From an uncultured Methylocystaceae bacterium (GTDB lineage: Bacteria > Pseudomonadota > Alphaproteobacteria > Rhizobiales > Beijerinckiaceae), in NCBI GenBank assembly GCA_903870245.1, contig CAIQCB010000043.1, forward strand, positions 62,001 to 126,000: a stretch of 64,000 nt of DNA. Direction: 5' to 3'. Below are positions 1,237 to 63,889 of the stretch, piece after piece. The translations under genes were made by a program, and so were the position numbers. The notes beneath the pieces are model-generated. The model saw only the letters and a list, made by a program, of their open reading frames with translations. It did no database searches and was not told the origin of the DNA. Each line of letters starts with the position of its first letter. The stretch's first letter is position 1.

Positions 1237-1536
1237 CGCGTGGCTCCGTGGTCCGGTTGGGAGGGTTAGTTATTTGGCGACGGCGTCTGGTGGAGAGGAT
1301 TGAGTATGAGTCGCCTGGGCTCCCCGGTCCAGAGCTTTCAGATAAATTCCTGATGCCGTAGGGCCCATAATCACCTTCGAACAGCGAGCAAGGTATTATG
1401 GAGCAACGACATCGGCGCGATGCGTTTTGCAGTTGTCCTACAGCGATCCCTGCCACTTGCTGGATAAGTTTGCGCTAAGCCCAGAGATCAACGCCCCGGG
1501 CCCGAACTCAATCAAGGCATTGATTGAGATTTCAGC
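1237..1536. other. intergenic stretch without a supported gene
   Basis: This holds the presumed upstream region of the DUF4239-like gene and the 3' side of the aldo/keto reductase. Short frames here look like shadows. A small inverted repeat (ATCAAGGCATTGAT) sits near 1512-1525, just before the reductase stop, but it has no T-run. Confidence 0.4.
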
Positions 1537-2586: not shown

Positions 2587-2593
2587 CTTGCGA

Positions 2594-4186: not shown

Positions 4187-4497
4187 TGGCTGCGTTCAAA
4201 AATCCCCAAATACTGCTCGCCTCCGATCTCAGGGACGGCGAAGTGATGTTTCTAGGCGCCTCGGGTTGGGAACGCGACCATCGCCGCGCGCGTGTCGCTC
4301 TGGACGCCGCCGCCGCAGCGGAACTTGAAAAAATCGGTCATGCCGAATACGCCAGCAACCACGTCGTCGATGTCTATCTCACTGATGTCGAAATCGAACC
4401 CGATGGCGTCCCGACCCCCCTTCATTATCGCGAGAAAATGCGGATCAAGGGGCCCAGCGTGCGCCGTGATCTCGGCAAACAGGCGACCGGAGCGTGA
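4183..4497 (+). CDS. DUF2849 family protein of the cysI operon
   Basis: A 104-residue small protein, starting at the first of two consecutive ATG codons (4183, 4186) that overlap the ferredoxin stop. It begins FKNPQILLASDLRDGEVMFL and has the compact mixed composition of the DUF2849 family, which in alphaproteobacteria sits directly upstream of nitrite/sulfite reductase genes. Its exact role is not established; a helper function for sulfite reductase is inferred from this position. Only three bases separate its stop from the cysI start. Confidence 0.85.
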   Translation: MMAAFKNPQILLASDLRDGEVMFLGASGWERDHRRARVALDAAAAAELEKIGHAEYASNHVVDVYLTDVEIEPDGVPTPLHYREKMRIKGPSVRRDLGKQATGA

Positions 4498-4500
4498 CTC

Positions 4501-7458: not shown

Positions 7459-8375
7459 TGAGCGCCCTGCCGACACGAGCGCTTGGTCACCTCGACCGCC
7501 TGGAGGCGGAAAGCATTCACATCATGCGCGAGGCGGTGGCCGAGACGGAACGCCCGGTGATGCTGTATTCGATCGGCAAAGACTCCGCCGCGATGCTGCA
7601 TGTTGCGATGAAAGCCTTCTATCCCTCCAAGCCTCCGTTTCCGTTGCTGCACGTCAACACGAGATGGAAGTTTCGCGAAATGATCGAATTTCGCGACAAA
7701 CTTGTGAAGGATTTGGGTCTGGAGCTGCTGGAATATATTAATCCGGAGGGTGTGGAGAAGAATATCAACCCCTTCGACCATGGGTCCAAGCTGCACACGC
7801 AAATCATGAAGACTGAGGCGCTGAAACAGGCGCTCGAAAAATGGAAATTCGACGCCGCCTTCGGGGGCGCGCGACGCGACGAGGAGAAATCCCGCGCCAA
7901 AGAACGCGTGCTTTCCTTCCGCACCGCGCAACATCGCTGGGATCCGAAAAACCAGCGTCCCGAATTCTGGCGGCTCTACAACACCCGCAAGTCGCAGAGC
8001 GAGTCGCTTCGTATCTTCCCGATGTCGAACTGGACGGAGGCGGATGTCTGGGACTACATCGCTCGCGAGAATATCCCGGTGGTGCCGCTGTATTTCGCCA
8101 AGGAGCGTCCGGTCGTTGCGCGCGACGGCACGCTGATCATGGTCGACGACGACCGTATGAAATTGCGTCCCGGAGAGAAGATCGAAAACAAGATGGTGCG
8201 TTTCCGGACACTGGGTTGCTATCCGCTGACCGGCGGATTCGAAAGCTCGGCGGCGACGCTCGAAGACATCATCGCCGAAATGCGCGCAAGTCGTTCTTCC
8301 GAACGGCAAGGACGATTGATTGATCATGACGGCTCCAGCTCCATGGAGCAAAAAAAGCAGGAAGGGTATTTCTGA
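7458..8375 (+). CDS. cysD: sulfate adenylyltransferase small subunit
   Basis: 305 residues; with the CysN GTPase it makes APS from sulfate and ATP. The N-terminal PP-loop motif ([14 protein letters not shown]), the conserved [17 protein letters not shown] and the C-terminal [12 protein letters not shown] are intact, and the length matches the family. The start overlaps the cysH stop by one base, and one base separates it from cysN, so translation is probably coupled. Confidence 0.97.
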
Positions 8376-8376
8376 C

Positions 8377-10008
8377 ATGTCTGGCGCCGTCGCCTCATTA
8401 GCGCCGACCCGCGCGCCCTTGCGTCACAGTGGCGTCGACAAGCCATTGCTGCGTTTCATCACATGTGGCTCTGTCGATGACGGCAAATCCACCCTGATTG
8501 GCCGATTGCTCTACGACGCTGATCTGGCGCCCGACGACATGCTGGCGACGCTCGAGTCCGACTCCCGCAAACACGGCACGCAAGGCGAGGATCTCGATTT
8601 CGCCCTGCTCGTCGATGGTCTTGCCGCCGAACGCGAACAAGGCATCACAATCGATGTCGCCTATCGTTATTTTGCAACCGATAAGCGCAAGTTCATTGTC
8701 GCCGATACGCCCGGGCACGAACAATATACGCGGAATATGGCGGTCGGCGCCTCGACGGCCGAGGTGGCGATTCTGCTTGTCGACGCGCGTAAGGGCATTC
8801 TGCCGCAGACCCGCCGACATAGCGTCATCACCTCAATGTTCGGCGTGCGGCATGTTGTCGTCGCCGTCAACAAAATGGATCTTGTCGATTACAGCGAGGA
8901 TGTGTTCCGCAAGATCGAGCAGGATTTCCGCGACTTCGCAAAACATCTGCGATTTTCTTCGATTTATGTCGCGCCACTTGTCGCCAAGGATGGCGAAAAT
9001 CTGGTCCATGCCGGCACAAAAATGCCGTGGCACAAGGGCCCGCCGCTACTCGCATATCTCGAAGGCGTCGCCGTGGAGGATACGACGCGAATTGCGCCGT
9101 TTAGGTATCCGGTGCAATGGGTCAACCGGCCCAATCTCGATTTTCGCGGCTTCTCGGGCTTCATCAGCGGCGGGAATATTCGTCCCGGCGATATCGTTCG
9201 CATTTTGCCGGCGGGACGCGATACGCGCGTTGCGCGTATCGTCACCTATGACGGCGACCTCGAAAGCGGCGTCTCCGGCCAGTCGGTTACCCTGACGCTC
9301 AACGAGGAAATCGATATCTCGCGCGGCGATATGCTGTGCTCGCCGGTATCCCCGGCCAAGGTCGGCGACCGATTGACGGCGCAGATCCTGTGGCTGGTGC
9401 GCGAACCGCTCGTTGTCGGCAAAAGCTACCTTCTCAAGATCGGAACAAAGATCACCCCGGCGGCGATTTCATCTGTCGAGTCGCGAATTGAGATCGAAAC
9501 CGGCCTCGACGCGCCCCTTGAACCGGGCGCGACACTACAGTTCAACGAGATCGGCGAGGCAAGCCTATCGCTCGAAACCATGATCGCCTGCGATCCCTTC
9601 ATCGAAAATCGCGAAACCGGCGGCTTTATCCTGATCGACCGGATCACCAATGAAACGGCGGCTGTCGGCATGGTGAAAACCGTGGCGTCTTCACTCAGTC
9701 GTCCGGCGCCCTCGCTGACCGATCTCAGCTACGCCTCGATGGAGGGAGTCGCGAGCGCCGCGAACGCAAATGCCTCCGGGACGTGGCGTTTAGGCAAATC
9801 GCTGGTCTTTGGCGGAATTGCGGGCCTGACGACCTTCGGGATCGCCGCCGCCTTCGCGCAGGACGCCGGTTTGGCGACCAGGATCGCGCTCGCGGAAACC
9901 GGCGCAATCGTCATCCTGCATTATCTTTTCGAAAAACTCTGGCGCACGCCGCAGGAAACGAAAGAGTCTCATAATGAACCGCCGCCCTTCGAGGGCGAGG
10001 GGCTCTAG
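8377..10008 (+). CDS. cysN: sulfate adenylyltransferase GTPase subunit with an extra C-terminal membrane hairpin (DUF2061-like)
   Basis: 543 residues. GTPase motifs are intact: G1 GSVDDGKST, G3 DTPGHEQ, G4 NKMD. Elongation-factor-like beta-barrel domains follow and end near residue 445 (TNETAAVGMVK). Instead of a CysC kinase domain, the last 65 or so residues contain two hydrophobic segments (about 477-493 and 501-514) with ETGAIVILHYLFEKLW, resembling the small DUF2061 membrane family. The ATG at 8377 was chosen because it follows the cysD stop by one base; the frame itself extends further upstream into cysD. It ends just before a two-hairpin repeat. Confidence 0.93.
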   Translation: MSGAVASLAPTRAPLRHSGVDKPLLRFITCGSVDDGKSTLIGRLLYDADLAPDDMLATLESDSRKHGTQGEDLDFALLVDGLAAEREQGITIDVAYRYFATDKRKFIVADTPGHEQYTRNMAVGASTAEVAILLVDARKGILPQTRRHSVITSMFGVRHVVVAVNKMDLVDYSEDVFRKIEQDFRDFAKHLRFSSIYVAPLVAKDGENLVHAGTKMPWHKGPPLLAYLEGVAVEDTTRIAPFRYPVQWVNRPNLDFRGFSGFISGGNIRPGDIVRILPAGRDTRVARIVTYDGDLESGVSGQSVTLTLNEEIDISRGDMLCSPVSPAKVGDRLTAQILWLVREPLVVGKSYLLKIGTKITPAAISSVESRIEIETGLDAPLEPGATLQFNEIGEASLSLETMIACDPFIENRETGGFILIDRITNETAAVGMVKTVASSLSRPAPSLTDLSYASMEGVASAANANASGTWRLGKSLVFGGIAGLTTFGIAAAFAQDAGLATRIALAETGAIVILHYLFEKLWRTPQETKESHNEPPPFEGEGL

Positions 10009-10129: not shown

Positions 10130-13100
10130 TCAGTGCGCCTCATCCCAATTAGCGGCGGCGCGCGCATCGACGTGCAGCGGCACGCTTATCCGGACAACGG
10201 GCTCTGGGGCCTGCTCCATGATGCGACGCGCGACAGAAATAGTCGCCTCACTTTCGTCCGCAGGAGCCTCGAAGACCAATTCGTCATGCACCTGCAGCAG
10301 CATTTGCGTCGAGAGACCGGCGTCGGCGAGCGCGGCGTCCATTTCCGCCATGGCGCGACGAATGATATCGGCAGCGGCGCCCTGAATCGGCGCGTTGATT
10401 GCGGCCCGTTCGTAGAAAGCCCGATCCGAGGGATTGGCGGAAGCCATACGGGGGAAATGACAGACGCGGCCAAAAATGGTTGTCACCGCCAATGTCTCTC
10501 GCACCTGTTTTTTCATCGCTTCCATGTAATCGCGAATGCCGGGAAAACGCTCGAAATAACGCTTGATGTAATCGCTGGCCTCCTGACGCGAAATACCGAG
10601 CTGATTGGCGAGTCCGAAAGCGGAAATGCCGTAAATAATCCCGAAATTGATCGCCTTGGCCCGACGCCGAACATCGGCCGGCATTTCCTTTGTCGGCACG
10701 CCGAACATCTCGCTCGCCGTCATCGCATGAATGTCGATGCCGTCGGCGAAAGCTTTTTTCAGCTGCGGAATGTCGGCGATATGCGCCAGCAGACGCAACT
10801 CGATCTGGGAGTAATCGGCCGAAATCAGCACATGTCCCGGCGCGGCGATAAACGCCTTGCGGATTTTTCGTCCGGCCTCGTTGCGTACCGGAATATTCTG
10901 TAAATTCGGCTCAGAAGACGAGAGCCTGCCTGTCGTCGTGGCCGCCAGGGAATAGGAGGTATGCACGCGTCCGGTTTGCGGATTGACAAAACCGGGTAGA
11001 GCATCGGCGTAGGTGCTTTTCAGTTTCGCCAATTGACGCCAATCAAGTATTCGCCTTGCGAAATCATTGCCATCGGTGGCGAGGTCCTCCAGCACGCTGG
11101 CGGAGGTCGACCATGCGCCGGTCGTCGTCTTTTTGGCGCCGGGCAGACCCATTTTACCAAAAAGAATATCCCCAAGCTGTTTGGGCGAGGCGAGATTGAA
11201 ACTCTCGCCCGCCATATCAAAGATAGCCGCCTCCAGCCGCGCCATATCTTGCGCAAATTCGCCGGAGAGCCGCGAAAGAATGGCGCGATCAATCATCACG
11301 CCGCGCCTCTCCATCGCCGCCAGCGTCGCGACCATCGGCCGCTCCAGCGTCTCGTAGACATGGGCGCGGCGTTCGATCGGCAGGCGCGGCTTCAGCAAAC
11401 GCCATAGACGAAGCGTCACATCTGAGTCCTCGCCGGAGTATTCTGTGGCGGGCCTCAGCGGCACGCGCGCAAAACCGATAAAACTTCGCCCCGAACCGGC
11501 GACCTCCGAAAAAGGAATATTCTCGTGACCCAGATGTTTTCGCGCCAGCTCGTCGAGACCATGATTGTTAAGCCCTGCGTCGAGGGCGTAGGAGATCAGC
11601 ATGGTGTCCTCAATCGGCGCGACGGACACGCCATGCCGGGCAAGGACGAGCAAATCATATTTCATGTTATGCGCGATCTTGAGAACCGCATCGTCCTCGA
11701 ACAAGGGCTTCAATCGCGCCAATGCCTGATCGAGCGGAATTTGTCCGGCGACGAGCGCGGCGCCCCCAAAAAGATCGCCCGATCCCGGCTCACGATGCTG
11801 AAGCGGAATGTAACAGGCGCGGCCAGGCGCCACCGCCATTGAGACGCCGACCAACTCGCATTGCATGGCGTCGAGCGAGGTGGTTTCGGTGTCGATAGCG
11901 ATGACGCCGGCGACGCGCGCCTGCTCGATCCAGTCATCGAGTTGCGCAAGAGTCAGCACGGTCATATAGGCCGAACGATCGATAACCGTCGCCTGCGCCT
12001 CGATCTGTCGTGAGGCGACAAGCGCCGCAGGCGTCATAGATTGCGGTTCTGACAATTTGCCTCGGGACGCAGGTTTTGCGTCGCCCGGCAGGGTCGGCGA
12101 TGGCGCTTCGCGCATCTCGCCGTCGCGCGCGCGCCATCCGGCGGCGCCCACGAAAGCCGGATCGGGGACGACCTCCTGCGCCTCCACGCCGTATAGTTCG
12201 GCGACGCGCCGGGTGATGGTCGTGAACTCCATCGCCTGCAAAAAGGCGACCAGCGCTCTTGCGTCCGGTTCGTGAAGGCGAAGCTCGTCGAGCGACGTTG
12301 CGACAGGCGCGTCGCGCACAAGTTCGACGAGTTTTTTCGACAAGCGAATCAACGCCACGGCGTCGGGATCGGTCAACGCTTCACGGCGTTTTGGTTGTTT
12401 GATCTGCGGCGCCTGCGCCAGCAGCGTTTCCAGATCGCCATATTCATTGATCAGTTGCGCGGCGGTTTTGACGCCGATGCCCCTGGCGCCGGGCACATTA
12501 TCGGTGGAGTCGCCGGCGAGCGCCTGCACATCGACTACCTTGTCCGGCGGCACGCCGAAATAATCGACGACCTCCGGCTCGCCGATCAACCGCTCCTCGC
12601 GCGCGCCTTTCGCGCCGGCGACGCCGGAAGCCGGATCATACATTTTTACGCCCGGACCAATCAGCTGCATCAGATCCTTGTCGGCGGAAATGATCAGCAC
12701 ATCGGCGCCCTTCGCACGGGCCTGAGTCGCATAGGTGGCGATGAGATCGTCGGCCTCGTATACATCCTGTTCGACGGGCGTCAGACCAAATGCGCGCACG
12801 GCGGCGCGCATCAACGGAAATTGCGGGATCAGATCTTCCGGCGGATCGGCGCGATGCGCCTTGTAGTCGGGATAAAGCTCCTTGCGGAAGGAGTTTTCGC
12901 TCTTGTCGAAAATAATCGCGAGATGGGTAGGCCTCACGCCGGCCGCGCCCTCGCGGATAAACTGCAGCAGCTTCGCGCAAAAGAGCCGCACCGCCCCGGT
13001 CGGCAGACGGTCGGAGCGATAATTATATTTCGCGTCCTGACGGATCGACTGAAAATAGGCGCGAAAGACGAAGGACGAGCCATCAACGAGGAAAACATGG

Positions 13101-13135
13101 CTATCGGGGCCAACAGGTTTATGCGCGGAAGTCAT
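10130..13135 (-). CDS. polA: DNA polymerase I
   Basis: 1001 residues: a 5'-3' exonuclease domain (VFLVDGSSFVFRAY; AGDSTDNVPGARGIG), a 3'-5' exonuclease domain with the DTET motif of an active proofreader (VIAIDTETTSL), and the family A polymerase domain with motif A (ISADYSQIELR), motif B (RRRAKAINFGIIYG) and motif C (LLQVHDELVFE). It fills gaps in repair and removes RNA primers. I chose the ATG at 13135 (MTSAHKP) rather than the frame start at 13177, because the extra 14 residues are not typical. It is convergent with cysN and separated from it by the repeat. Confidence 0.96.
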   Translation of the reverse strand: MTSAHKPVGPDSHVFLVDGSSFVFRAYFQSIRQDAKYNYRSDRLPTGAVRLFCAKLLQFIREGAAGVRPTHLAIIFDKSENSFRKELYPDYKAHRADPPEDLIPQFPLMRAAVRAFGLTPVEQDVYEADDLIATYATQARAKGADVLIISADKDLMQLIGPGVKMYDPASGVAGAKGAREERLIGEPEVVDYFGVPPDKVVDVQALAGDSTDNVPGARGIGVKTAAQLINEYGDLETLLAQAPQIKQPKRREALTDPDAVALIRLSKKLVELVRDAPVATSLDELRLHEPDARALVAFLQAMEFTTITRRVAELYGVEAQEVVPDPAFVGAAGWRARDGEMREAPSPTLPGDAKPASRGKLSEPQSMTPAALVASRQIEAQATVIDRSAYMTVLTLAQLDDWIEQARVAGVIAIDTETTSLDAMQCELVGVSMAVAPGRACYIPLQHREPGSGDLFGGAALVAGQIPLDQALARLKPLFEDDAVLKIAHNMKYDLLVLARHGVSVAPIEDTMLISYALDAGLNNHGLDELARKHLGHENIPFSEVAGSGRSFIGFARVPLRPATEYSGEDSDVTLRLWRLLKPRLPIERRAHVYETLERPMVATLAAMERRGVMIDRAILSRLSGEFAQDMARLEAAIFDMAGESFNLASPKQLGDILFGKMGLPGAKKTTTGAWSTSASVLEDLATDGNDFARRILDWRQLAKLKSTYADALPGFVNPQTGRVHTSYSLAATTTGRLSSSEPNLQNIPVRNEAGRKIRKAFIAAPGHVLISADYSQIELRLLAHIADIPQLKKAFADGIDIHAMTASEMFGVPTKEMPADVRRRAKAINFGIIYGISAFGLANQLGISRQEASDYIKRYFERFPGIRDYMEAMKKQVRETLAVTTIFGRVCHFPRMASANPSDRAFYERAAINAPIQGAAADIIRRAMAEMDAALADAGLSTQMLLQVHDELVFEAPADESEATISVARRIMEQAPEPVVRISVPLHVDARAAANWDEAH

Positions 13136-13198
13136 GGCCGCATCATAACCTGTCGCCGCGCGCCTGTCCTCCTGCAAGCGACATCCAGCCGCGCCAAC

Positions 13199-16039
13199 CT
13201 ACCCCAATCGCGCCAGCGCCGCATTGAGCTTGTCGATCCGCGCCCGCGTTTCTTCAAGCCGCTCACGATGCTCGTCGATCACCTCTTCTTCCGCCTTGGC
13301 CAGGAAGCCCGGATTGGCGAGTTTGGCGTCGAGTTTCTTCGCCTCTCCATCACATTTGGAGATTTCCTTCGCGAGGCGCGTCTTCTCTGCGGCGAGATCA
13401 ACGACGCCCTCAAGCGGAATCGCCGCGACGCCGCCGCGCACCAAAATCTGCGCCGACGCCCTGGGGGCAGCCTCGGTAAAATCGATGCGCGACAGTCGCG
13501 CGAGCTTGCGCAGCGTTTCGTCCCAGCGCCGGGCGCGCGCCTGCAACGCATCATCGGCGCCAATCAGAAGAAGCTCTGTTTCGCCAGTCAGCGCCATCTC
13601 GGCGCGCAGCGAGCGGATTTCCGAAATGAGTTCGACGACCCAGCCGATTTCGCTTTCGGCCTCGGCGTCTTCCAGCCCCTCCAGCGACGGCCATTGCGCC
13701 AGCGCCAGCAGGCTCTCGCGCTTCGGGCCTTCCGCGCCTTTGATCGCCCACAGCTCTTCGGTGAGGAAGGGCATGAACGGATGCAGCAGGGCATAGATCT
13801 GGTCGAGCACGAAAGCGGTCGTCGCGCGCGTCTCCGCCTTTGCCGTCTCATCGTCGCCGAGCATCAGCGGCTTGGCGAGTTCGACATACCAGTCGCAGAA
13901 GATGTTCCAGACGAAACGATAGGCGGCGTTCGCGGCATCGTTGAAGCGATAGGCGTCGATGGCCGTCGACACATCGGCGACAGCGCTCGCCGCTTCACCG
14001 ACAATCCAGCGATTGAGCGTAATCTTGTTGGCGCGCGGATCGTAGCCGGCGACGCGCGCGCAGCCATTCATCTCGGCGAAACGCGACGAGTTCCAGAGCT
14101 TCGTCGCGAAATTTCGATAGCCTTCGACGCGCTGCGTCGAGAGCTTGATATCCCGCCCCTGCGCGGCCATAGCCGCGAGCGTGAAGCGCAGCGCATCGGC
14201 GCCATAATCGTCGATCAGATGCAGCGGATCGATGACATTACCCTTCGACTTCGACATTTTCGCGCCCTTCTCGTCCCGGACGAGCGCGTGGATATAGACG
14301 TCACGGAAGGGAACTTCCTTTTTGAAATGCAGGCCCATCATCATCATGCGGGCGACCCAGAAAAAGATGATGTCGAAGCCGGTGACAAGCACATTGGTTG
14401 GATAGAAGCGCTCCAGCTCCGGCGTCTCGTCCGGCCAGCCCAGCGTCGAGAAGGGCCACAAGGCCGAGGAAAACCAGGTGTCGAGCACGTCTTCGTCGCG
14501 CCACATTGGCTCCCAACGACCTTTTCCTTCGATCTCGTCATTGATCGCTTGTTGAAAAACGTCGTCTACATCGGAGCGTGGCGGTTCCACGATGCGTACC
14601 GGTCTACCATAATGCTTTTCAGCTTGGGCGATTGCATCACGTTCATTTTCCGCGACGAAAATTTCGGGGTCGTCCAGTCCTGCCCATTGATTGGACCCAA
14701 CTTCTTTTCGGCCATACCACGCCGGAATGCGATGACCCCACCAGAGCTGACGCGACACGCACCACGGCTGGATGTTTTCGAGCCAGTCGAAATAGGTTTT
14801 TTCCCAGTTCTTCGGCACGAAGCTTGTCTTACCCTCGCGCACGGCCTTGAGCGCCGGCTGCGCCAGGGTTTTGGCGTCGACATACCATTGGTCGGTGAGG
14901 CGCGGCTCCAATACCGCGTGTGAGCGGTCGCCATGCGGGACCATATGTTTGTGATCGTCGATTCCGTCGAGCAGTCCACGCTCCTCCATCATCCCGACGA
15001 CCAGCCTGCGCGCGGCGAAGCGATCCTGCCCGTCCAGCGCAGCAACAGTCGCAGCGAGTTCGGCTGAATTTTCCAGTCCCTCGTGGAAGTCGCTGTTGGC
15101 CGCGAGCGCAACGCGCGCTTGCGCGTCCAGCACATTGACGAGCCGCAATCCGTGTCGCTTGCCGACTTCGAAATCGTTGAAGTCATGCGCCGGAGTGATC
15201 TTCACCGCGCCCGTGCCCTTTTCGGGATCGGAATAGTCATCGGCGACAATCGGAATGAGACGCCCGACCAGCGGCAGGCGCAGCTTCTTGCCGACCAGCG
15301 CGGCATAGCGTTCATCTTCCGGATGTACGGCCACCGCCGTGTCGCCGAGCATCGTTTCGGGGCGCGTCGTCGCGACCACGATGAACTCGCCCGTCTCCTT
15401 GCCGGCGTCGTCGACCACCGGATATTTGAAGCGCCACAGATGGCCCTTCACCTCTTGCTGCAGCACCTCAAGATCGGAGATCGCCGTGTGCAGCACCGGG
15501 TCCCAGTTTACAAGGCGCTTGTCCTTGTAGAGAAGCCCATCACGGTAGAGTTGCACAAACACCTTCGCTACCGCGCGCGACAAACCCTCGTCGAGCGTGA
15601 ACCGTTCGCGCGACCAGTCGCAGGAGGCGCCGAGCCGCTTCAACTGTTCGACGATCTTGCCGCCCGACTCGGCTTTCCACGCCCAGACGCGCTCAAGAAA
15701 TTTCTCGCGGCCCATCTCGCGGCGGCCGGGCTCCTGGCGCTCCGCCAACTGACGCTCGACCACCATCTGCGTGGCGATGCCGGCGTGATCCGTTCCCGGC
15801 TGCCACAACACATCTTCGCCCTTCATGCGATGATAGCGCACGAGAATATCCTGCAAGGTGTTGTTGAGCGCATGGCCCATATGCAGGCTGCCGGTGACGT
15901 TGGGCGGCGGAATGACGATAGAATAGGATTTAGCGTCGGCGCGATCGGGCCGACCGGCGCGAAACGCCTGCGCCTCCTCCCAAAGGTTGCGGATGCGGCT
16001 TTCGATTGCAGCGGGTTCGAAGGTTTTGTCCATCGTCAT
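13199..16039 (-). CDS. valS: valyl-tRNA synthetase
   Basis: 946 residues; charges tRNA-Val in the cytoplasm. Class I signatures are present: the HIGH-type motif in SLHMGHALNNTLQDILVRYHR and KMSKSKGNVIDP. The editing domain (ATTRPETMLGDTAVAVHPED) lies between them, and a C-terminal coiled-coil tail (about 870-946) rich in Glu, Lys and Ala is present, as is usual for ValRS. It starts ATGACGATG, so translation could begin at either Met. It lies 63 bases upstream of polA and downstream of eno on the same strand. Confidence 0.97.
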   Translation of the reverse strand: MTMDKTFEPAAIESRIRNLWEEAQAFRAGRPDRADAKSYSIVIPPPNVTGSLHMGHALNNTLQDILVRYHRMKGEDVLWQPGTDHAGIATQMVVERQLAERQEPGRREMGREKFLERVWAWKAESGGKIVEQLKRLGASCDWSRERFTLDEGLSRAVAKVFVQLYRDGLLYKDKRLVNWDPVLHTAISDLEVLQQEVKGHLWRFKYPVVDDAGKETGEFIVVATTRPETMLGDTAVAVHPEDERYAALVGKKLRLPLVGRLIPIVADDYSDPEKGTGAVKITPAHDFNDFEVGKRHGLRLVNVLDAQARVALAANSDFHEGLENSAELAATVAALDGQDRFAARRLVVGMMEERGLLDGIDDHKHMVPHGDRSHAVLEPRLTDQWYVDAKTLAQPALKAVREGKTSFVPKNWEKTYFDWLENIQPWCVSRQLWWGHRIPAWYGRKEVGSNQWAGLDDPEIFVAENERDAIAQAEKHYGRPVRIVEPPRSDVDDVFQQAINDEIEGKGRWEPMWRDEDVLDTWFSSALWPFSTLGWPDETPELERFYPTNVLVTGFDIIFFWVARMMMMGLHFKKEVPFRDVYIHALVRDEKGAKMSKSKGNVIDPLHLIDDYGADALRFTLAAMAAQGRDIKLSTQRVEGYRNFATKLWNSSRFAEMNGCARVAGYDPRANKITLNRWIVGEAASAVADVSTAIDAYRFNDAANAAYRFVWNIFCDWYVELAKPLMLGDDETAKAETRATTAFVLDQIYALLHPFMPFLTEELWAIKGAEGPKRESLLALAQWPSLEGLEDAEAESEIGWVVELISEIRSLRAEMALTGETELLLIGADDALQARARRWDETLRKLARLSRIDFTEAAPRASAQILVRGGVAAIPLEGVVDLAAEKTRLAKEISKCDGEAKKLDAKLANPGFLAKAEEEVIDEHRERLEETRARIDKLNAALARLG

Positions 16040-16133: not shown

Positions 16134-17462
<1,329 letters not shown>

Positions 17463-17678
17463 TTAGCTCTAATGGGGCGCCGGGGAAAGTCTCGGGCGCA
17501 GGTTTGAGAAGGTTTATCTCCACAGGGCTCGAAGGTTGACGGAGCCCGACCGAGTCATAGTTTCTGGTCAGGCCAACACGGCGCCTACCGAAGCCTTCCC
17601 TTTGATTTCTTTAGAAATTCACGCTGGAAGCCCGGAAACGCCGCCATCCGTCGGATGTCCGGCGACCGGGAGCTCATC

Positions 17679-19103: not shown

Positions 19104-19847
19104 TCAGTGCGACAGCGCCCAGACCATGCTGACCCGTGCGCTGATTCTCTGGAGGCCGGGACGCATCGGGGGCGCGCTATCGGCCATTGGCGCAGCGGCG
19201 GCCTTCATCGCGTAGGGATGCGGAAAGGGCGACGTTTCGTCGGCCGGGCGAATTTCCAGCACGCGCGACAGACGCAAACCCGCCGCCTCGGCGTAAACGC
19301 GGGCGCGACGTTCAGCGTCCTTCACCGCCCTGGCGCGCAATTCATCCATCTTGGCCTCGGGCTGGGAATAATCATATTCGACGCCCTGGAGGCTATTGAC
19401 GCCCTTGTCCATAAGTCGACCCGCAATCTCCCCGGCGCGCTGAATTTCTCGCACGCGCACGCTGAGATCGTTGCGGGCGACATATTGTTTTTTGATCCCG
19501 ATGGTTTTGCCCTTGAGATCGCGCTCCTCCGTGGTGACCGGGGTGAGCGTCACCCCCTGCGTGCGCACGTCGGCGTCGACGACGCCCAGGGTCTTCAACT
19601 CATCGAGAATCGCCGCTGCGATGCGCGCGTTCTCTTTGGCCGCCTCAGCCGCCGCCGCGCGCTCGGTGACGACTCCGAAATTCAGCGTAGCCTGATCTGG
19701 CGCGACATCCTCTTCGGCCACGCCGATCACCGAGACGCTCGGCACAGAATCCTTCAAAGGTTCGGCAAACGCCGGCTGGACCGACTCACCGCCGAAAACG
19801 CCCCCCAGGCAAAGGGCGAGAGAGAGTGCGAAAACCGGACGAATCAT
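19104..19847 (-). CDS. SIMPL (DUF541) domain periplasmic protein
   Basis: 247 residues with an N-terminal signal peptide (LALCLGGVFGGESVQPAFAEP). The mature region carries the SIMPL/DUF541 pattern: SVIGVAEEDVAPDQATLNFGV, a helical stretch with repeated Ala/Glu, and VEYDYSQPEAKMDELRARAVKDAERRA. The family is found in the periplasm or outer membrane, with oxidative-stress or signalling roles proposed but not settled. It is convergent with queF and divergent from the fzlA-like gene. Confidence 0.88.
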   Translation of the reverse strand: MIRPVFALSLALCLGGVFGGESVQPAFAEPLKDSVPSVSVIGVAEEDVAPDQATLNFGVVTERAAAAEAAKENARIAAAILDELKTLGVVDADVRTQGVTLTPVTTEERDLKGKTIGIKKQYVARNDLSVRVREIQRAGEIAGRLMDKGVNSLQGVEYDYSQPEAKMDELRARAVKDAERRARVYAEAAGLRLSRVLEIRPADETSPFPHPYAMKAAAAPMADSAPPMRPGLQRISARVSMVWALSH

Positions 19848-19990
19848 GCCATATCCCTGATTCTCAAGACCGCAATCGGACGGCCGCCGTCTCCGCCCGC
19901 GAAGCGGGCGGCGATTTTACAGTTCTCATCATAACCAAAGCGGCGGCCCGCGTCCCGTCCAGCGAACGAAACAGCCCAACGAAACAAACT

Positions 19991-20674
19991 ATGCCCGTTC
20001 TCCACCATCACCCGTTTTGCCCGCAATCGCGTTTCGTGCGTCTTGTTCTCGGCGAATATGGCGTTCCGGTCCAACTGGTCGAAGAACGCGTCGCCGAACG
20101 TCGCCCGGAGTTTCTGGCGCTCGACCCCGCCGGACGGACTCCGGTGTTTGTCGACGACGATGGAACGGTCGCGCCCGGCGCAACCGTGATCATGGAATAT
20201 ATCGACGACATCGCCGGCGCGGCGCTCGGGGCGCGGCGTCTCATGCCGACCGACCCGCGGCAGCGAGTCGAGGTGCGCCGGCTTGTCGACTGGTTCACCG
20301 TCAAACTGGACGCCGAAGCGACAAGCTGGCTGGTGCAGGAGAAAATCTTCAAACGTCACGCATCGCAGGGCGGCGCGCCGGATATGGACGCCGTGCGGGC
20401 GGCACGCGCCAATTTGCGTCATCACATGCGCTACATCGACGCCCTCGCCGGCCTGCGCCGATGGCTCGCCGGCGATCGGCTGAGTTACGCCGATTTTGCA
20501 GCCGCCGCGCATCTTTCCTGCGCCGATTATCTTGACGACGCGCCCTGGAGCGAGCACGCCTCTGCGAAGGAATGGTATCAGCGTCTCAAATCCCGGCCGG
20601 CGTTTCGGTCGCTGCTCGCAGACCGTGTTCCGGGCATGGCGCCGGCCTCTCAATACGCAGAAATAGATTTTTAA
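19991..20674 (+). CDS. fzlA: glutathione S-transferase-like protein, FzlA type
   Basis: 227 residues with an N-terminal thioredoxin-fold half (LHHHPFCPQSRFVRLVLGEYGV; GRTPVFVDDDG) and an all-helical C-terminal half. The ending LADRVPGMAPASQYAEIDF is characteristic of FzlA, the alphaproteobacterial FtsZ-binding GST homologue that regulates cell constriction; this is from general knowledge of the family. The ATG at 19991 was chosen because the frame upstream is not GST-like and overlaps the neighbour's promoter. In relatives FzlA is often near queuosine genes, and here queF lies 1 kb upstream. Ordinary GST activity is the alternative. Confidence 0.8.
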   Translation: MPVLHHHPFCPQSRFVRLVLGEYGVPVQLVEERVAERRPEFLALDPAGRTPVFVDDDGTVAPGATVIMEYIDDIAGAALGARRLMPTDPRQRVEVRRLVDWFTVKLDAEATSWLVQEKIFKRHASQGGAPDMDAVRAARANLRHHMRYIDALAGLRRWLAGDRLSYADFAAAAHLSCADYLDDAPWSEHASAKEWYQRLKSRPAFRSLLADRVPGMAPASQYAEIDF

Positions 20675-58145: not shown

Positions 58146-58949
58146 TCAGGCGCCGCCGGCTTTGACAAGCTCGATAAAATCCCGAAGCTTGATCCAGTTG
58201 CGGTTCGGCGGCGTCTGAACCTCCGTGTTCACCTGATAATAGCGCTCCGCCCATTCGTTGTTTTTGACATCCTGCCTTACGCCTTCGGCGCCCGAGAAGC
58301 GGCCGACGATGTAAAGGGCGATCTTGTCTTCAGGTAGCGTAACAAGTTCTTTGCCTTGCATGAACTCAGTGCTGTTGGCCGCATAAGATTTGCCGCCCTC
58401 GTAGAGACTATCCGCCCGAAGAAGAACGGGATCGTCCTTGAATAACTCCAGAGTCAGGTCTTTCCAGGACACTAGACAGTTAAAATCTTCGGAATATTTG
58501 CCATTTAATTTATCGATATGTTTACTTGACGCCAGTCCAACCAAAAGGGTCCGCGCGCCCGTTGATTTCGTTACTTCGCATTTGTCTTTTTTGAACATGT
58601 TAAACTGGGATATGTCCGAGTCGAACCCCTGCTGCGCCTTTGCCTCGATGATAACAATCGTTTTTTCGGAAAACAGACACAGGTCGAAGGTGCGCTTTGG
58701 CGAAATCAATTTGATATCCTTGGTATCTTTGTTCAGAAACCACAGGTCCCGATAGAAACATACTTCATAGGCCGGCTCCCATTCGACATCGGGGTCGAGG
58801 GCGATCGTACTTTTGCTATTAAGCAAAGCGATAAATTTTTTAAGATTGTCTCTATCCCTCAGCAGATTGAAAAAATGTTGACAGTAATAACGCTCATCCC
58901 GTGTGACTTCCGCCCACAGTTTTCCATTCAGATACGACCAGCCGCTCAT
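58146..58949 (-). CDS. PD-(D/E)XK-like protein of unknown function
   Basis: 267 residues from an ATG preceded by GGGAG. A PD-(D/E)XK-type core can be read: RTFDLCLFSEKTIVIIEAKAQ, with Asp in FDLCLF, then Glu-x-Lys in IEAKA, followed by QGFDSDISQFNMFKKD and LLVGLASSKHID. Fewer GC bases and less Ala than in the neighbours, with more Lys and Asn, suggest transfer. It sits just before a region of integrase relics. A restriction or defence nuclease is one reading, not shown. Confidence 0.65.
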   Translation of the reverse strand: MSGWSYLNGKLWAEVTRDERYYCQHFFNLLRDRDNLKKFIALLNSKSTIALDPDVEWEPAYEVCFYRDLWFLNKDTKDIKLISPKRTFDLCLFSEKTIVIIEAKAQQGFDSDISQFNMFKKDKCEVTKSTGARTLLVGLASSKHIDKLNGKYSEDFNCLVSWKDLTLELFKDDPVLLRADSLYEGGKSYAANSTEFMQGKELVTLPEDKIALYIVGRFSGAEGVRQDVKNNEWAERYYQVNTEVQTPPNRNWIKLRDFIELVKAGGA

Positions 58950-59089
58950 GCTTGCTCCCTCTCGCCCGCGATGCGTGTCGTCTCTGCAACGCTCTGCGGG
59001 CGGATAGCGTACTCAAAACCGGAATGAGTATTCCACCTTGGCGGCGCCGGGGAAAGTCTCTTGATGTTGAATGCTGAAGGAAGAGTTGA

Positions 59090-59319
59090 ACGAAAGCTTG
59101 AGCTTGCGCTCTACTGGTCTGATCAAATCCGGATTTTTGATTGCCTCTCACCGCCGGACGTTCGACATCCTTACCGTTCAAGTTGACGATTGCTCAAAAC
59201 CGGTTTCCAGTAAGCCTGATCCGTAAACGTCAACACTGCGCGCGAGCAGCGAAAGCTTTACGGCCTGAATGTCAAGCACAGGACTCAAATATCGCTCTGG
59301 TGACACAGGCGCGTTTTTT
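59090..59319 (-). pseudogene. decayed phage-type integrase, N-terminal relic A
   Basis: On the minus strand one frame reads KKRACVTRAIFESCA, stop, GRKAFAARAQC, stop, RLRIRLTGNRF, stop, AIVNLNGKDVERPAVRG, which follows the N-terminal half of phage-type tyrosine recombinases (KKRAVLT-AIF, AAR, LTGMRVGEI--L--DV). Three internal TGA stops and no catalytic C-terminal half mark it as a remnant. It follows an AGGAGG-type site shared with relic B. Its identity rests on this pattern alone. Confidence 0.5.
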
Positions 59320-59322
59320 GCG

Positions 59323-59420
59323 CCCTCCTGTGGCTCACCAAAAGTTTGAAAATAGCATGTTTTCTGCTGCGACGAAGAGCTGCGTGAGTGATTTTGGGAG
59401 TGATCGCTGTAATGCAGAGT
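59323..59420 (-). repeat. direct repeat, copy A (upstream region of integrase relic A)
   Basis: Shares CCTCCTNTGGCTCACNAAAAGTTTGAAA, then AGCATGTTTTCTG, AAGAGC and GATTTTGG with copy B (61841-61937) in the same order, with scattered changes. On the minus strand it ends with the ribosome-binding site of the integrase relic, so it is a conserved leader. Confidence 0.7.
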
Positions 59421-59568
59421 CCAGGCCGTTTAGATATGATGCTAGTTGCGCTTCCTATCCAAGGCTGACTTTCTATCATGTCATCCATTCTATAGTGCTG
59501 TGGGGTACGGGACGAACACCCTACTTCAGGGATCAGCCATTCAGAGCAGCCAGCACAGACGTATTCCG

Positions 59569-60132
59569 CTATAGCTGGTTACGCAGCGCCATCTGAACGA
59601 CCAATTCTCCGACGGAGAGGCTGACCAAAATGGTGGCTGAGAGGAGAACTGGCCGAGATTTCGCGAAGAAAGCGACTATCGAAAAGCAGATGATAACTAT
59701 AGCAGCGAAATTTTGAATCGGGCTGACATTCAAAAAACGCCAGTAAAAAGGTTCTGTGAGTAGCGTGTAGAACGCAATGAACAGCGTCGACCAACGGCCA
59801 TTCAGATCGTACCAATCCCTCAAATCTCCGCCTGATTGAGCCTCTGTGTTCGGCAAAATCAGGACTGCTGCAAAAAAAAGATTGAAGACAAGGACCAGCA
59901 GCATGAGGAACATTGAGAAGTTCCAGACCTTAACCTGAGCCCCCAAATGCACGAAGTTCCAAGAGAGCTCCAGGAGCAGGAGGAATATGGTTACCGACCA
60001 GACAAATGGAACCCAGTCGAGGCGCACCTGACGGCGGGCTATGAACATATTGGCAATCGACAGGACAAGACGCGTCATACTGAGGGCGATGATGACCCCC
60101 AGCGCAGATTCAACCCACTCGAACGAATGCAT
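59569..60132 (-). CDS. multi-pass membrane protein of unknown function
   Basis: 187 residues with about five hydrophobic segments (near 8-28, 43-62, 70-92, 115-133, 140-155, 160-180). A charged loop with NTEAQSGGDLRDWYDLNGRWS joins the halves. No family is recognised. It is encoded downstream of the Ntn hydrolase on the same strand with a 32-base gap, so the two are probably co-transcribed within the segment bounded by repeats A and B. Confidence 0.7.
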   Translation of the reverse strand: MHSFEWVESALGVIIALSMTRLVLSIANMFIARRQVRLDWVPFVWSVTIFLLLLELSWNFVHLGAQVKVWNFSMFLMLLVLVFNLFFAAVLILPNTEAQSGGDLRDWYDLNGRWSTLFIAFYTLLTEPFYWRFLNVSPIQNFAAIVIICFSIVAFFAKSRPVLLSATILVSLSVGELVVQMALRNQL

Positions 60133-60164
60133 TGCTTGGCTTACCTATCATGACTTTGGTGAGG

Positions 60165-61184
60165 CTATATCTTCAGTTTTGACGGTTTCAGCCGGTTTGT
60201 AATGTCCCCGCTCAAACCGGCGTCATAGGCGTCCACATCAAGGACTGTTGCGCCTTCAGCCGTATTCACCGTGCTTAAGTCTATCCAGAAGACATTGGGG
60301 CTGCGTGTCGATTGGAAGTAGTAGATGTGATGGGTCATGTCGGCTACAGATCCCCAGAGCGTCGGCCAAGCATCCGCAGCATCTCCGCCTGAAGTATCGT
60401 GAGCCCCAAACGGCACGGCGACATTCCTCACGACGCTATAAGCGCCGGCAACGGCGTCCAAAGATGACTCTGGCTTGGGCAGTGTCTTGAGATAGCTGGA
60501 GGCTCGAACAAAGCGGCTTAGCGGATCGATATCGCCGGGCATGGCCTTCCTGCCGCCGAACAGGCGATATTTAAGAAGGTTCTTCCTCTGAATTTCGAAA
60601 GACGGTTCATTCGTCATTACAACTGTCTGAGGCCCTCGGTTCACCACCAGTTTGCTATTAACAAACTCAAAGATGGCGCTGTCGCCCGTGGCGTCGGCAA
60701 TCGACAGATGCACAGGCCATTCGCGCCCACCTGCGCTGATGGAGACAATCTGAACAGACTTCATAGCTTCAACAGCCTGGGCGACAGTTTCGAAATTATC
60801 GAGGAGATACTGTGACCAGAGAGTATTCCCTACGCCAGGCCGGCTGTCGCGCTTCTCATACTTGCTGCCGTGCAGATAGAGCAGATTGGCGCTAAGGCCT
60901 TTCTCGTTGAGCCCATCGCTAATGGCGACATCCAAACCACTCACGGCAACACTGGCGTATTTCGATTTCCAACTGAACATGTTTGGCGCACCGTCCGGGC
61001 CGCCACGACTGATGCCGCGCGGGAAGACGACGATCCGCGCCTTATCCGACATGTAGAGATCCATCGTTCGACCAACGACGACGGCCTTGTCATTATCCCA
61101 AAGCAGGCGGGAACAGGCCAGAGCGCTTGTAACAAGCAAGCTAGCGCCTATGGCGGAAGCGAGAATAAGCTTCTTTTTCAGCAT
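60165..61184 (-). CDS. secreted linear-amide C-N hydrolase (choloylglycine hydrolase family, Ntn fold), paralogue 2
   Basis: 339 residues. A signal peptide (LILASAIGASLLVTSALA) is followed directly by Cys-Ser-Arg (ACSRLLW), the Ntn nucleophile position. VVGRTMDLYMSDKARIVVFPRGI, GLNEKGLSANLLYLHGSKYE, TGDSAIFEFVNSK and VMTNEPSFEIQ match the same family as paralogue 1 at 41.3-42.4 kb, sharing motif order and the SRFVRASSYLKTLP block. Substrate unknown; bile salts are unlikely here, and acyl-homoserine lactones or N-acyl amides are options. Confidence 0.88.
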   Translation of the reverse strand: MLKKKLILASAIGASLLVTSALACSRLLWDNDKAVVVGRTMDLYMSDKARIVVFPRGISRGGPDGAPNMFSWKSKYASVAVSGLDVAISDGLNEKGLSANLLYLHGSKYEKRDSRPGVGNTLWSQYLLDNFETVAQAVEAMKSVQIVSISAGGREWPVHLSIADATGDSAIFEFVNSKLVVNRGPQTVVMTNEPSFEIQRKNLLKYRLFGGRKAMPGDIDPLSRFVRASSYLKTLPKPESSLDAVAGAYSVVRNVAVPFGAHDTSGGDAADAWPTLWGSVADMTHHIYYFQSTRSPNVFWIDLSTVNTAEGATVLDVDAYDAGLSGDITNRLKPSKLKI

Positions 61185-61389
61185 TATTTTTGGCCTTGTT
61201 CAGGGTTCTTTTGATTGAGCCGCCTTTGCGCCCCAAGACATGAATCAATGATGTTGTTAACGCTGCCGATATTACCTGACTGCTGATCTGGCCGGATAAT
61301 CCAGAACCCGGTCTCGCCGCGTTCGTTGGGTTGACTATATACCCTCAGCCCATTCTCATGGCTCTACTCTTCTGCGCTATTTTTTCAAT

Positions 61390-61837
61390 GGTTAATGACG
61401 ATGATCATCTGCAGATCAGCTGTTTGGCGTCTTTGGCATGTGATGCGGCCCTGTCGATCCCTGCTCCATGATATATGTGCGGCGACTCCTGACAGAGACA
61501 ACGACAGCCGAGAACCTCTTCCCCATCTTGCTGGCGATCAACGGGCTCTCTGGGGTCGGCTTTATGGGTCGGGAGGGATATAGGCCTCCAGCTCGCTCCT
61601 CAACTGACTGCCGACCAAAACTGTTCTGGCCGAGCTTCCCTTGGTCTGGTCTGGTCGAAGCTGGATTTCCGGGCGTCTCCACATCCTCGACGCTTGGGGC
61701 CGCGATTTCTCCGACCCGCATGCCCGCCAGTCCGCTCAGCATCGGTCAACAATGGTTCGTGACGGGTAGGCGGTACGGCCCACATGCTGGAGCGCCCGCT
61801 TCATCTCCCGCTATTTTAAAACCGGGGCTTGTTTCAC
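61390..61837 (-). pseudogene. decayed phage-type integrase, relic B
   Basis: From a GTG at 61837 after AAAGGAGG, the minus strand reads VKQAPVLK, stop, REMKRALQHVGRTAYPSRT. After a frameshift it reads MLSGLAGMRVGEIAA and DVETPGNPASTRPDQ. In a third frame it reads TVLVGSQLRSELEAYIP, then SRPIKPTPESPLIASKMGKRFSA, and finally IYHGAGIDRAASHA. Together these follow the middle of tyrosine recombinases (AGMRVGEIAAL, RTVFVS-L--EL-AYI, GKRFSA, GI--ASSH). Several frameshifts and stops, and no catalytic Tyr region, show decay. Confidence 0.7.
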
Positions 61838-61840
61838 TGC

Positions 61841-61937
61841 GGCCTCCTTTGGCTCACAAAAAGTTTGAAACAAGCATGTTTTCTGATGTCACAAAGAGCA
61901 ACCGAAGAGATTTTGGCAATGAACGCTGTATTTTCAG
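61841..61937 (-). repeat. direct repeat, copy B (upstream region of integrase relic B)
   Basis: Matches copy A (59323-59420) over most of its length in the same orientation. It forms the leader of relic B and together with copy A brackets the Ntn hydrolase and membrane protein genes. Confidence 0.7.
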
Positions 61938-62098
61938 CGGTTTATGCGCCAACATCACATAATATGTATTTTGTGATGCAAAGCGAATTACCCGGTTTAG
62001 AGCCTTATGCGCGCAACGCGCTGTTGAGATAGCTTGTCTTTGGAATCTGCGCGGTACCGCAGTGATACCGCGCAAACCCCATAAAGAGTAGAAGCTTA

Positions 62099-63889
62099 CT
62101 ATGAAAAGCCCTTGATCTTACTACCAAGAACCCGTCGGATATGCGTTACCATCCAGTATCTCGGCATCACAGCAGTGGTTAATGCCTCGGGCGATATAGC
62201 TTTCTCGAAGTCTGATGGGTTCCATTTTGGTCTATTTTGGAAAGACAGAGCGCCAGCTACACACTCTGTTAGCGCCTGTTCAAAGGCCTGTTTGACCTCA
62301 TCTTCAATCACGCTGGATACTTCAGGCATGTTTGCGTAATTCTTCGAAAAATATTCGATGAGATCTCGCAATCCCTGAAAATCCTTGTTTGCTAATATCA
62401 GGTTTGACGTTTGGATATATTCCGCGGCCCGATCTAATAGCGCCTCGTTTTCTTCGGGAGAGGCGTGCACCCATTCGACCCTCGGAAATGGATCTGGCTG
62501 AGCATCGGCAGCTTTGACGCCGATCGTTTTATCAACGAGTGCAGTGAGTAGGGCCGTAGAAAGCGATCCAAACACTGTACCGCGACCAGAAGAAGAGGTT
62601 CGCGGCGGTTCCGCAGTACGATCCCCGGCCAGAATGTGGCCGGTGCCAAAACTTGCCTCTGAGTTCGGGTCTGCAAACAAGGTACCCTTAGGATTGGCTT
62701 TATATCTGCTGAGTTTATAGAGTTCCTTTATACTTTTTAGCCGCTCTTTAATGCTGTCCGTGTGTGAATCCGCAGCATTTTGTTCAAGCAGATCATCAAG
62801 AAATCGCTTTAGCTCAGATGGCATGTTGCCACGGAATTCGTCAGCCCATTTATCCCAACTCGGAACAGACCCGTCTGGGCGGACTAAATTTGTCCTTGCA
62901 GTGTTTTGAACCAGGTTTTGAGGTTCGACGTAAATTATGACGCGGTCACGCCCCATAATGACGCCGAAGAATGCCGCGCGGTTGGATCTCGCGTCGCTGA
63001 CGTCAAAAATTTCATTTTCGTTGATTAGCGCAGTATGACCCTTGAGTTGTTCGCGCCCGTGCCCATCAATGCCTTTTGGCATAACCCACCAATAGACTTT
63101 GGCGTCCGAAAGTTTGACCTCGCCTTTCAATTCTGACTTGTCGTCCAGAATCGCTTTTTGTCCGCGGATCGCGAGAAGGTAATTATGGCGGGGATTGTTA
63201 TCTCGATAGTAGCCGATACGGGCTGAAATTTCGATTCCGTCTGGGATCTGAAAGAAGCGACTGTTTAAATACAGAGCTAGCCACGACTCGCGTATCCCAG
63301 GCACACCCTCGGGCGGCTTCATCGTATCTTGTTGGTCTTCCATTCCCCATAGTGTGACGCAGGTTCCGTGCGCAGAAATCTCGCCCGGCTTCTCCTCATC
63401 TGTAAGCGGAATCGCATAATAGCTGGCTCCGTCCTGCGCCTGCGTTCCCTGGATTCCATAGATGCCGTCTTCAGAATTGTATCGAATATACACGCGATGA
63501 CCTTGGCCATCTTTCCACGAATCGTATTGGATACCAGCATGATTTCTAGTGAGTGCCGATATTTTGGCACCAACACCATAGTTGGCATGCTCGTTCTTCG
63601 CTCCTGAAGCCGATAGATTATTCAGCAGGTGGATCATTTGCTCACCGGACATTCCGTCTCCGGTGTCAATAAAACATATCTTATGCAATTTGAGCTGGGC
63701 ATACAGTCGTTGATCGTAGTCAATCACCAACTTGGACGAGGGTGCGCCCGTCCTCTGGCACGCTTCTATCGCGTTCTTGGTAAACTCTCTAAGAAATTGA
63801 GTTGGAGAACAATCTCGACCTAAATTAACGATCAAGTTTGTTAAACCACTTGGGTTTACTTCGGTGGGCAGAAATTTCGGACTAGACAT
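62099..63889 (-). CDS. GHKL (Hsp90/MORC-like) ATPase of unknown function
   Basis: 596 residues from the ATG at 63889, preceded by GGAG with six-base spacing (a TTG four codons upstream is the alternative). GHKL ATP-binding motifs are visible: N-box FLREFTKNAIEACQRT, G1 IDTGDGMSGEQM, G2 ANYGVGAKISAL. It lacks histidine-kinase dimerisation motifs. A middle domain of about 200 residues follows, then a disordered Ser/Gly/Thr-rich stretch near 430-455 and a helical C-terminus. Composition is less GC-rich than the core genome. It lies next to integrase relics, so horizontal transfer and a possible defence role are inferred. Confidence 0.78.
   Translation of the reverse strand: MSSPKFLPTEVNPSGLTNLIVNLGRDCSPTQFLREFTKNAIEACQRTGAPSSKLVIDYDQRLYAQLKLHKICFIDTGDGMSGEQMIHLLNNLSASGAKNEHANYGVGAKISALTRNHAGIQYDSWKDGQGHRVYIRYNSEDGIYGIQGTQAQDGASYYAIPLTDEEKPGEISAHGTCVTLWGMEDQQDTMKPPEGVPGIRESWLALYLNSRFFQIPDGIEISARIGYYRDNNPRHNYLLAIRGQKAILDDKSELKGEVKLSDAKVYWWVMPKGIDGHGREQLKGHTALINENEIFDVSDARSNRAAFFGVIMGRDRVIIYVEPQNLVQNTARTNLVRPDGSVPSWDKWADEFRGNMPSELKRFLDDLLEQNAADSHTDSIKERLKSIKELYKLSRYKANPKGTLFADPNSEASFGTGHILAGDRTAEPPRTSSSGRGTVFGSLSTALLTALVDKTIGVKAADAQPDPFPRVEWVHASPEENEALLDRAAEYIQTSNLILANKDFQGLRDLIEYFSKNYANMPEVSSVIEDEVKQAFEQALTECVAGALSFQNRPKWNPSDFEKAISPEALTTAVMPRYWMVTHIRRVLGSKIKGFS

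Follow-up and report, generated by a model that had tools for sequence, protein, structure and literature searches.

A GHKL ATPase family shared by phages and cells, with an intact copy in a decayed integrase island next to rpsD

GHKL ATPases are found on both sides of the phage-host conflict, as in MORC systems, GHKL-type Shedu and phage RIIA, and their mode of action is mostly open. Here we analysed a 596-residue GHKL protein encoded in a 64,000-nt stretch of DNA from an uncultured Methylocystaceae bacterium (hereafter the window; coordinates given without a locus name follow its numbering). A sequence-only reading had singled out the segment 58146-63889 as a candidate defence or mobile island with this ATPase and a PD-(D/E)XK-like protein at its two ends. 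We tentatively favour the explanation that the protein is a mobile-element-borne dimeric clamp ATPase of the MutL/MORC/Hsp90 type, tied to phage recombination and kept in cells as island cargo, possibly for defence. A family lying both by phage recombinases and among cellular defence genes would open the way to a direct test of action on recombination intermediates and could serve as a new marker in searches for loci of defence or counter-defence.

Comparison of the GHKL protein with described systems

As outlined in excerpts of PMC2292703, prokaryotic MORC and paraMORC1-5 proteins combine an N-terminal GHKL domain with an S5-type domain and a family-specific C-terminus, and are mobile and patchily distributed; at some loci, genes for methylases, nucleases and helicases lie close by. 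The window protein and its family resemble them in these respects, and MORC2 and MORC3 are among its best fold matches. The family differs in that the MORC S5 motif GhXhhpXXRhl was found in 0 of 34 members (regular expression, residues 201-420), the position of the motif's Arg being occupied, by eye, by an invariant Glu (E292 in slice numbering; 32 of 32 rows), and in that no conserved SFII helicase partner was seen. Unlike in paraMORC3 and Shedu-type proteins, which end in an RE-fold (DUF4263-like) nuclease domain, Pfam gave no C-terminal nuclease family for the window protein or for members L027, L015, L030, L024 and L006. For the TIR domain of paraMORC4, which is C-terminal or in an adjacent gene, no family was found in the window protein or in five members scanned singly (the scan took in part of the adjacent genes). 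The HxH motif of paraMORC5 occurred in 0 of 34 members over the last 150 residues. ParaMORC1 and paraMORC2 are marked by a C-terminal extension of their own, beside MORC operons, and by an ExxxH motif.

VcSduA, a GHKL-type Shedu protein, similarly places a GHKL ATPase in a bacterial conflict setting, and in excerpts of PMC12137116 it carries a fused DUF4263 PD-(D/E)XK domain, whereas Pfam found none in the window protein. The Shedu near one cellular relative (L004) is a separate gene, unlike the VcSduA fusion described there. The Hsp90 chaperone HtpG is similar at the level of fold: a profile reached Hsp90 N-domains (best HtpG 2ior, E=9e-9, positions 28-99) and Hsp90 gave the top fold matches, but the NCBIfam HtpG model scored 15.1 bits against a cut-off of 371 and identity over the fold is ~12%. 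Type II topoisomerases differ by their TOPRIM and DNA-gate domains, neither of which was detected by Pfam in the window protein, whose chain ends after a 130-residue C-terminal domain.

Phage RIIA is, according to excerpts of PMC7824862, a phage-borne GHKL protein with a variable C-terminus, and its fold is similar. A rIIA-type counter-defence role, with the protein as a distant RIIA relative or analogue that would shield its element from host exclusion and the window copy as leftover phage or plasmid cargo, draws on the PHROGs search, in which the window protein had RIIA as its sole named match (E=0.0015, over residues 34-110), and on Foldseek against viral models, in which topoisomerases and RIIA were among the best 50 matches and 15 of those 50 were named RIIA. 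However, across the family RIIA was matched at E<=0.01 by 1 of 27 members, weakly (E=0.0016) and over the GHKL part only; RIIB was not among the 25 commonest of the 214 PHROGs of 150 phage neighbours; and the fold match is that of a superfamily-wide GHKL/S5 module, which Hsp90, topoisomerase and MORC match too. We consider this role unlikely.

The open reading frame (ORF) of the window protein starts with ATG and has no internal stop (600 codons from an upstream TTG), and the four GHKL motifs are present at residues 34 (REFTKN), 75 (DTGDGM), 103 (NYGVGAK) and 174 (HGTCVTL), so that the 596-residue GHKL ATPase described earlier was borne out; residue numbers from alignments omit the first Met, and 1 is to be added for the protein. 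Across the family the N-box was found in 34 of 34 members, the G1 pattern in 31 (all except L016, L019 and L033) and G2 in 34, the last count being partly by construction, as G2 belonged to the search pattern for viral members. These motifs and the matches to the Bergerat fold place the protein in the GHKL ATPase superfamily. The Pfam matches, HATPase_c at E=2.8e-4 and HATPase_c_3 at E=1.4e-3, fell below their curated cut-offs, and the family was named in none of four libraries (Pfam, PADLOC, NCBIfam, PHROGs). The possibility of a known housekeeping family, raised in the sequence-only reading, found no counterpart in Pfam or NCBIfam. No paper describing the family was found in open-licence PMC; a figure legend in PMC13092281, seen as an excerpt, lists HATPase among predicted defence domains, which may or may not correspond to this family.

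The AlphaFold2 model, based on an alignment of 27 sequences, had a mean predicted local distance difference test score (pLDDT) of 76.4 and was weak at the ATP lid (92-101) and at the linker (373-463). Against the PDB, Foldseek retrieved Hsp90 (5e-14), ParE (~2e-10), MORC2 (4e-10) and MORC3 (1e-9), with template modelling (TM) scores of 0.31-0.39 by query length. The C-terminal domain had no named relative in the structure comparisons made.

The protein has been under purifying selection since its split from the 62%-identical Keguizhuia protein, because the differences between the two genes are concentrated at third codon positions (0.31/0.24/0.66 for the three positions). This bears on the explanation that the gene is inert cargo, recently stranded by a dead element and with no present function, in which case little would be lost. 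The neighbouring integrase is broken, a DNA search found the GHKL gene in none of 40 relatives (nor the gene of the 267-residue protein), and there is one strong match within the order (G620) among the genomes sampled. Against this, the ORF and all four motifs are intact and the codon-position signal indicates constraint, though it is compatible with a very recent loss of constraint. We regard inert cargo as very unlikely.

Distribution and neighbourhoods of the family in phages and cells

Full-length homologues are present in Keguizhuia sedimenti (62% identity), in genome G323 (50%) and on a Caballeronia megaplasmid (37%; 61% over the best segment), and plasmids of Agrobacterium, Rhizobium, Dinoroseobacter and Acidisoma match at ~25%. 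In bacteria the family is rare: within the class, homologues were found in 6 of 385 genomes including our own (5 of 384 others), one of them, G306, truncated. A 10-row profile matched 51 of 398 phylum genomes at E<=0.001, four of them at E<1e-150 (our own, G334, G714 and G620); the other 47 (best 9.9e-8) were put aside as generic GHKL proteins, individually uninspected. In another class, that of G399 and putatively Gammaproteobacteria, 0 of 321 genomes matched at E<=1e-10. Viral scans yielded full-length members in 38 viral contigs, forming 20 groups at 60% identity, and no named phage in INPHARED matched any of four GHKL queries (one at E<=0.01, three at E<=1e-5).

In a tree of 34 proteins, the window protein groups with those of Keguizhuia and G323 (support 100/99), and this clade sits within a set of 10 rows, some of them from phages (90/91, not starred). 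Copies from cells and phages are intermingled, with at least 3 cell-virus label changes forced; several rows have long branches.

In 8 of the 20 phage groups, a recombination seed gene lies within 2 kb of the GHKL gene on the same strand (Table 1). From 23 loci, 150 neighbouring ORFs were taken (at most four per side, filtered, with six overlapping ORFs added by hand). The 25 commonest of their 98 Pfam families are led by ERF (4), gp32 (4), a KaiC-type ATPase (4) and RecA (3), and the 25 commonest of the 214 PHROGs by Erf-like (4 and 4), SSB (4) and UvsX (3), with the terminase small subunit (3). Two phage groups have a terminase gene within 2 kb of GHKL, and three have one within 5 kb. In a terminase control set, with a terminase ORF in 78 of 80 loci, 0 of 6 groups at 60% identity had such a seed gene on the same strand at up to 2 kb, nor did any of 7 at 70% or 12 at 80%; ERF or YqaJ matches stood 5-6 kb off on the other strand in 4 of the 78 loci.

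In phages and plasmids, the GHKL protein would most likely act with the recombination machinery of the element: ERF or UvsX/gp32, an exonuclease and a DNA methylase. ATP binding would close the N-terminal gate of the predicted dimer around DNA undergoing recombination, or around a protein bound there. The S5 domain may contact the substrate and the C-terminal domain may hold the dimer or a partner; hydrolysis would then reopen the clamp. In this view the window copy, itself intact, is a lone gene left as cargo when the integrase island at the rpsD hotspot decayed. A broader proposal is that these proteins form an undescribed family of recombination clamps and add a fourth DNA-directed role to those that the fold has in topoisomerase, MutL and MORC. 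Phages would employ it to license ERF/UvsX recombination, and bacteria would have taken it over within defence islands for recognising or poisoning those intermediates; this seems to us quite unlikely.

Several observations weigh against the clamp explanation. By the test used, 12 of the 20 phage groups have no recombination seed gene within 2 kb, and the seeds were drawn from the tested loci themselves, so that the contrast with the control is indicative only. The PD-(D/E)XK seeds rest on a weak Pfam match (E=0.001, below the cut-off) or on naming by eye; leaving out the L016/L019 group lowers the count to 7 of 20. The terminase control is itself weak, representing a single late-gene family from one GHKL-bearing phage and not an early-gene one. 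Among cellular copies, 0 of 13 was seen beside ERF, YqaJ or RecA, and defence genes near 7 of the 13 point to a defence role.

These seven loci (L003, L004, L005, L006, L008, L092 and L097) have a recognised defence gene or an array of clustered regularly interspaced short palindromic repeats (CRISPR) within 10 kb, a count for which there is no base rate for comparison; L006 and L008 have one shared arrangement, which leaves 6 of 12 independent loci. The total of 13 omits the truncated G306 copy (L014/L095) and the plasmid near-copies NZ_CP123850 and NZ_CP097553. Four proteins encoded in the window segment had no PADLOC 2.0.0 family at E<=1, one protein of L096 had no match, and L007, L091, L093 and L094 lay outside the scan; L007 has an annotated restriction endonuclease nearby. 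At two of the 13 loci (G323 and G334) the neighbours look metabolic or core by eye, which is the core-locus setting that the sequence-only reading had named, if it predominated among homologues, as speaking against its candidate.

The neighbourhoods give moderate support to the defence candidate put forward in that reading, and the lack of a PADLOC family for the segment proteins counts against it. In a defence explanation, cellular and plasmid copies would serve as the sensor or motor of an anti-phage defence system, alone or with their neighbours, like VcSduA or the MORC/paraMORC restriction systems, the phage copies being captured or directed against rival phages. The sibling island in the same hotspot, described below, adds to its appeal. 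However, the systems found nearby vary from locus to locus and none needs the GHKL gene to be complete, which argues for shared location and not for partnership; PADLOC matched neither the window nor the L006 GHKL protein, and its scan covered 2 of the 6 remaining cellular loci. A phage-serving role fits equally well, recombination genes adjoining GHKL in the phage groups listed above. We find the defence explanation somewhat unlikely, and in order of preference place the clamp first, followed by defence, an RIIA-like role and inert cargo. These readings overlap, since a clamp on recombination intermediates could serve either side. Because viral relatives often adjoin recombination genes and bacterial ones are often near anti-virus genes, the GHKL gene probably belongs to the virus-bacteria arms race, and DNA conflict and recombination would be the common thread of its family. 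The window gene was probably kept because it is helpful in conflicts between mobile elements, whether in defence or counter-defence.

Some neighbours were noted in more than one setting. In phage contig L029 a DndB-like gene precedes GHKL by ~60 nt in the same orientation; in Keguizhuia (L003; PF14072, E=3.7e-32) such a gene is ~200 nt from GHKL and convergent with it. The two DndB-like proteins are 56% identical, although their GHKL proteins are far apart in the tree. As a fixed partner the DndB-like protein was rejected: of 9 plasmid records with DndB-like matches, the four inspected were not among the GHKL matches, and the viral scan returned only L029 again. The association is suggestive but does not amount to a fixed pair. 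An ORF of ~65-76 aa stands directly upstream of GHKL in the plasmid-type lineage (L006, L008 and L092, and by position also L007 and L097), its similarity being seen only as a cluster of antisense ORFs (L006, L008, L092); none was found next to the GHKL gene of the window. The CRISPR array of L005 is broken up by an IS256-family transposase gene, and phage contig L046 carries, two genes past its family member, a second GHKL ORF that looks MORC-like by eye.

The decayed island and the rpsD hotspot

From left to right, the segment holds the 267-residue orphan, a leader repeat, a membrane protein, a choloylglycine-hydrolase-like gene, an integrase relic with its leader repeat and the GHKL gene (Table 1). 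The minus strand was confirmed for all five named ORFs (GHKL, 267-residue protein, membrane protein, hydrolase and integrase remnant), and the gene given as a secreted Ntn hydrolase in the sequence-only reading matches PF02275 in Pfam and has a signal-peptide-like start by eye. The claim in that reading of a composition unlike the neighbours was confirmed: G+C content is 0.48-0.54 in 1-kb intervals starting at 58-63 kb versus 0.575-0.654 at 53-57 kb, but similar stretches (0.52-0.59) occur at 45-48 kb, so that low G+C is not peculiar to the GHKL segment.

Table 1. Features of the window segment and of related loci
Locus	Feature	Position	Strand	Basis or detail
Window	GHKL ATPase gene (596 aa) with GHKL domain, middle domain of S5 type, low-confidence linker ~373-463 and family-specific C-terminal domain ~465-595	62099..63889	-	ORF, Pfam, motifs, alignment, predicted model, Foldseek
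Window	Integrase leader, copy 1 of 93-nt direct repeat	61838..61930	-	Repeat comparison
Window	Decayed tyrosine integrase gene (stops, frame changes)	61435..61837	-	tblastn with intact sibling protein, E=4e-23; sibling protein = PF00589
Window	Choloylglycine-hydrolase-like (linear amide C-N hydrolase), cargo	60165..61184	-	PF02275, E=1.2e-48; signal-peptide-like start by eye
Window	187-aa membrane protein, cargo	59569..60132	-	Hydrophobic stretches by eye; no family match in Pfam, PADLOC, NCBIfam
Window	Copy 2 of 93-nt leader repeat, without detectable integrase behind	59319..59411	-	81% identical
Window	267-aa orphan with PD-(D/E)XK-like string	58146..58949	-	ORF; motif by eye
Own genome	rpsD (30S S4)	64325-64942		By eye
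Own genome	Counterpart of 201-nt repeat	~64133-64332		
G547 (L122)	201-nt direct repeats	733-933, 17340-17540		88.6%
G547 (L122)	Small tyrosine recombinase, leader repeated without gene	3607-3975, 19732-20454		
L016 group	PD-(D/E)XK-like (weak)			Recombination neighbour
L018 group	ERF			Recombination neighbour
L021	ERF			Recombination neighbour
L022 group	gp32, RecA, D12 methylase			Recombination neighbours
L023 group	ERF, YqaJ			Recombination neighbours
L033	gp32, RecA			Recombination neighbours
L035	gp32, RecA			Recombination neighbours
L041	gp32			Recombination neighbour
L029	DndB-like gene	1761-3212		
L046	Second GHKL ORF	7955-9475		By eye
L006	Gabija (in L006 and L008 directly or 1.5 kb downstream of GHKL)			GajA 8e-221, GajB 3e-178
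L008	Genes homologous to those of L006			
L092	E1-E2/JAB			E=9e-74
L097	DRT UG13a, ~0.6 kb away, divergent			E=4e-225
L004	Shedu, ~9 kb away			E=4e-166
L003	Fic PDC-S04, ~3 kb away			
L003	DndB-like gene	12004-13479		
L005 (Acidisoma plasmid)	CRISPR array, end ~2.2 kb from GHKL	33-5762		At least 65 repeats, 32-nt repeat

Two decayed integrase genes had been proposed, of which one was recovered as a remnant spread over three frames, its best match being an intact 189-aa protein of sibling genome G547 that Pfam identifies as Phage_integrase (E=8.8e-29). The other is a copy of the integrase leader, behind which tblastn found no integrase match at E<0.01. The leader of this small tyrosine recombinase is also repeated without the gene in G547; this may be a site for recombination or a cassette-like mover.

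The segment lies just 3' of rpsD, which is itself just past the right edge of the window. Sibling G547 has this 3' flank of rpsD in duplicate, as 201-nt direct repeats 16.6 kb apart, with a truncated integrase copy between them and the intact integrase 2.3 kb beyond the distal one. The repeat region includes the apparent rpsD terminator; in our genome the sequence is present beside rpsD, beyond the window, and no second copy was found within the window. Between the G547 repeats, 4 of 5 tested ORFs had PADLOC matches: PDC-M55C (6e-59), a RecD-like protein (9e-74) and two ORFs resembling type IV restriction genes (Orf5 as best match, 5.5e-26 and 2.3e-68). The 3' site of rpsD is thus an integration hotspot that takes up islands, one of the two islands seen carrying defence-type genes. 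Ten further sibling rpsD loci had no integrase or repeat at a meaningful E-value (L132 and L135 were left out of this search). The mobile island of the sequence-only reading is thus supported by the integrase remnant, the leader repeat and a hotspot common to one sibling genome.

At the other end of the segment, the FDL..IIEAKA string described earlier is present in the 267-residue protein and is PD-(D/E)XK-like by eye, but no family, homologue or usable model supports the nuclease assignment. The protein had no match in Pfam, PADLOC, NCBIfam or PHROGs, nor among the plasmids and viral contigs searched; 0 of 384 other class genomes and 0 of 60 relatives (overlapping sets) matched, only its own genome doing so, and the single-sequence model was meaningless (pLDDT 29.8). 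A two-gene system of this protein and the GHKL ATPase was rejected: the pair never recurs, because the 267-residue protein has no relative in anything searched, and no link was found for the cooperation considered earlier.

Beyond the segment, the distance between polA and rpsD is ~51 kb here, compared with ~15-19 kb in several siblings; therefore the window stretch at ~13-58 kb may be inserted or rearranged.

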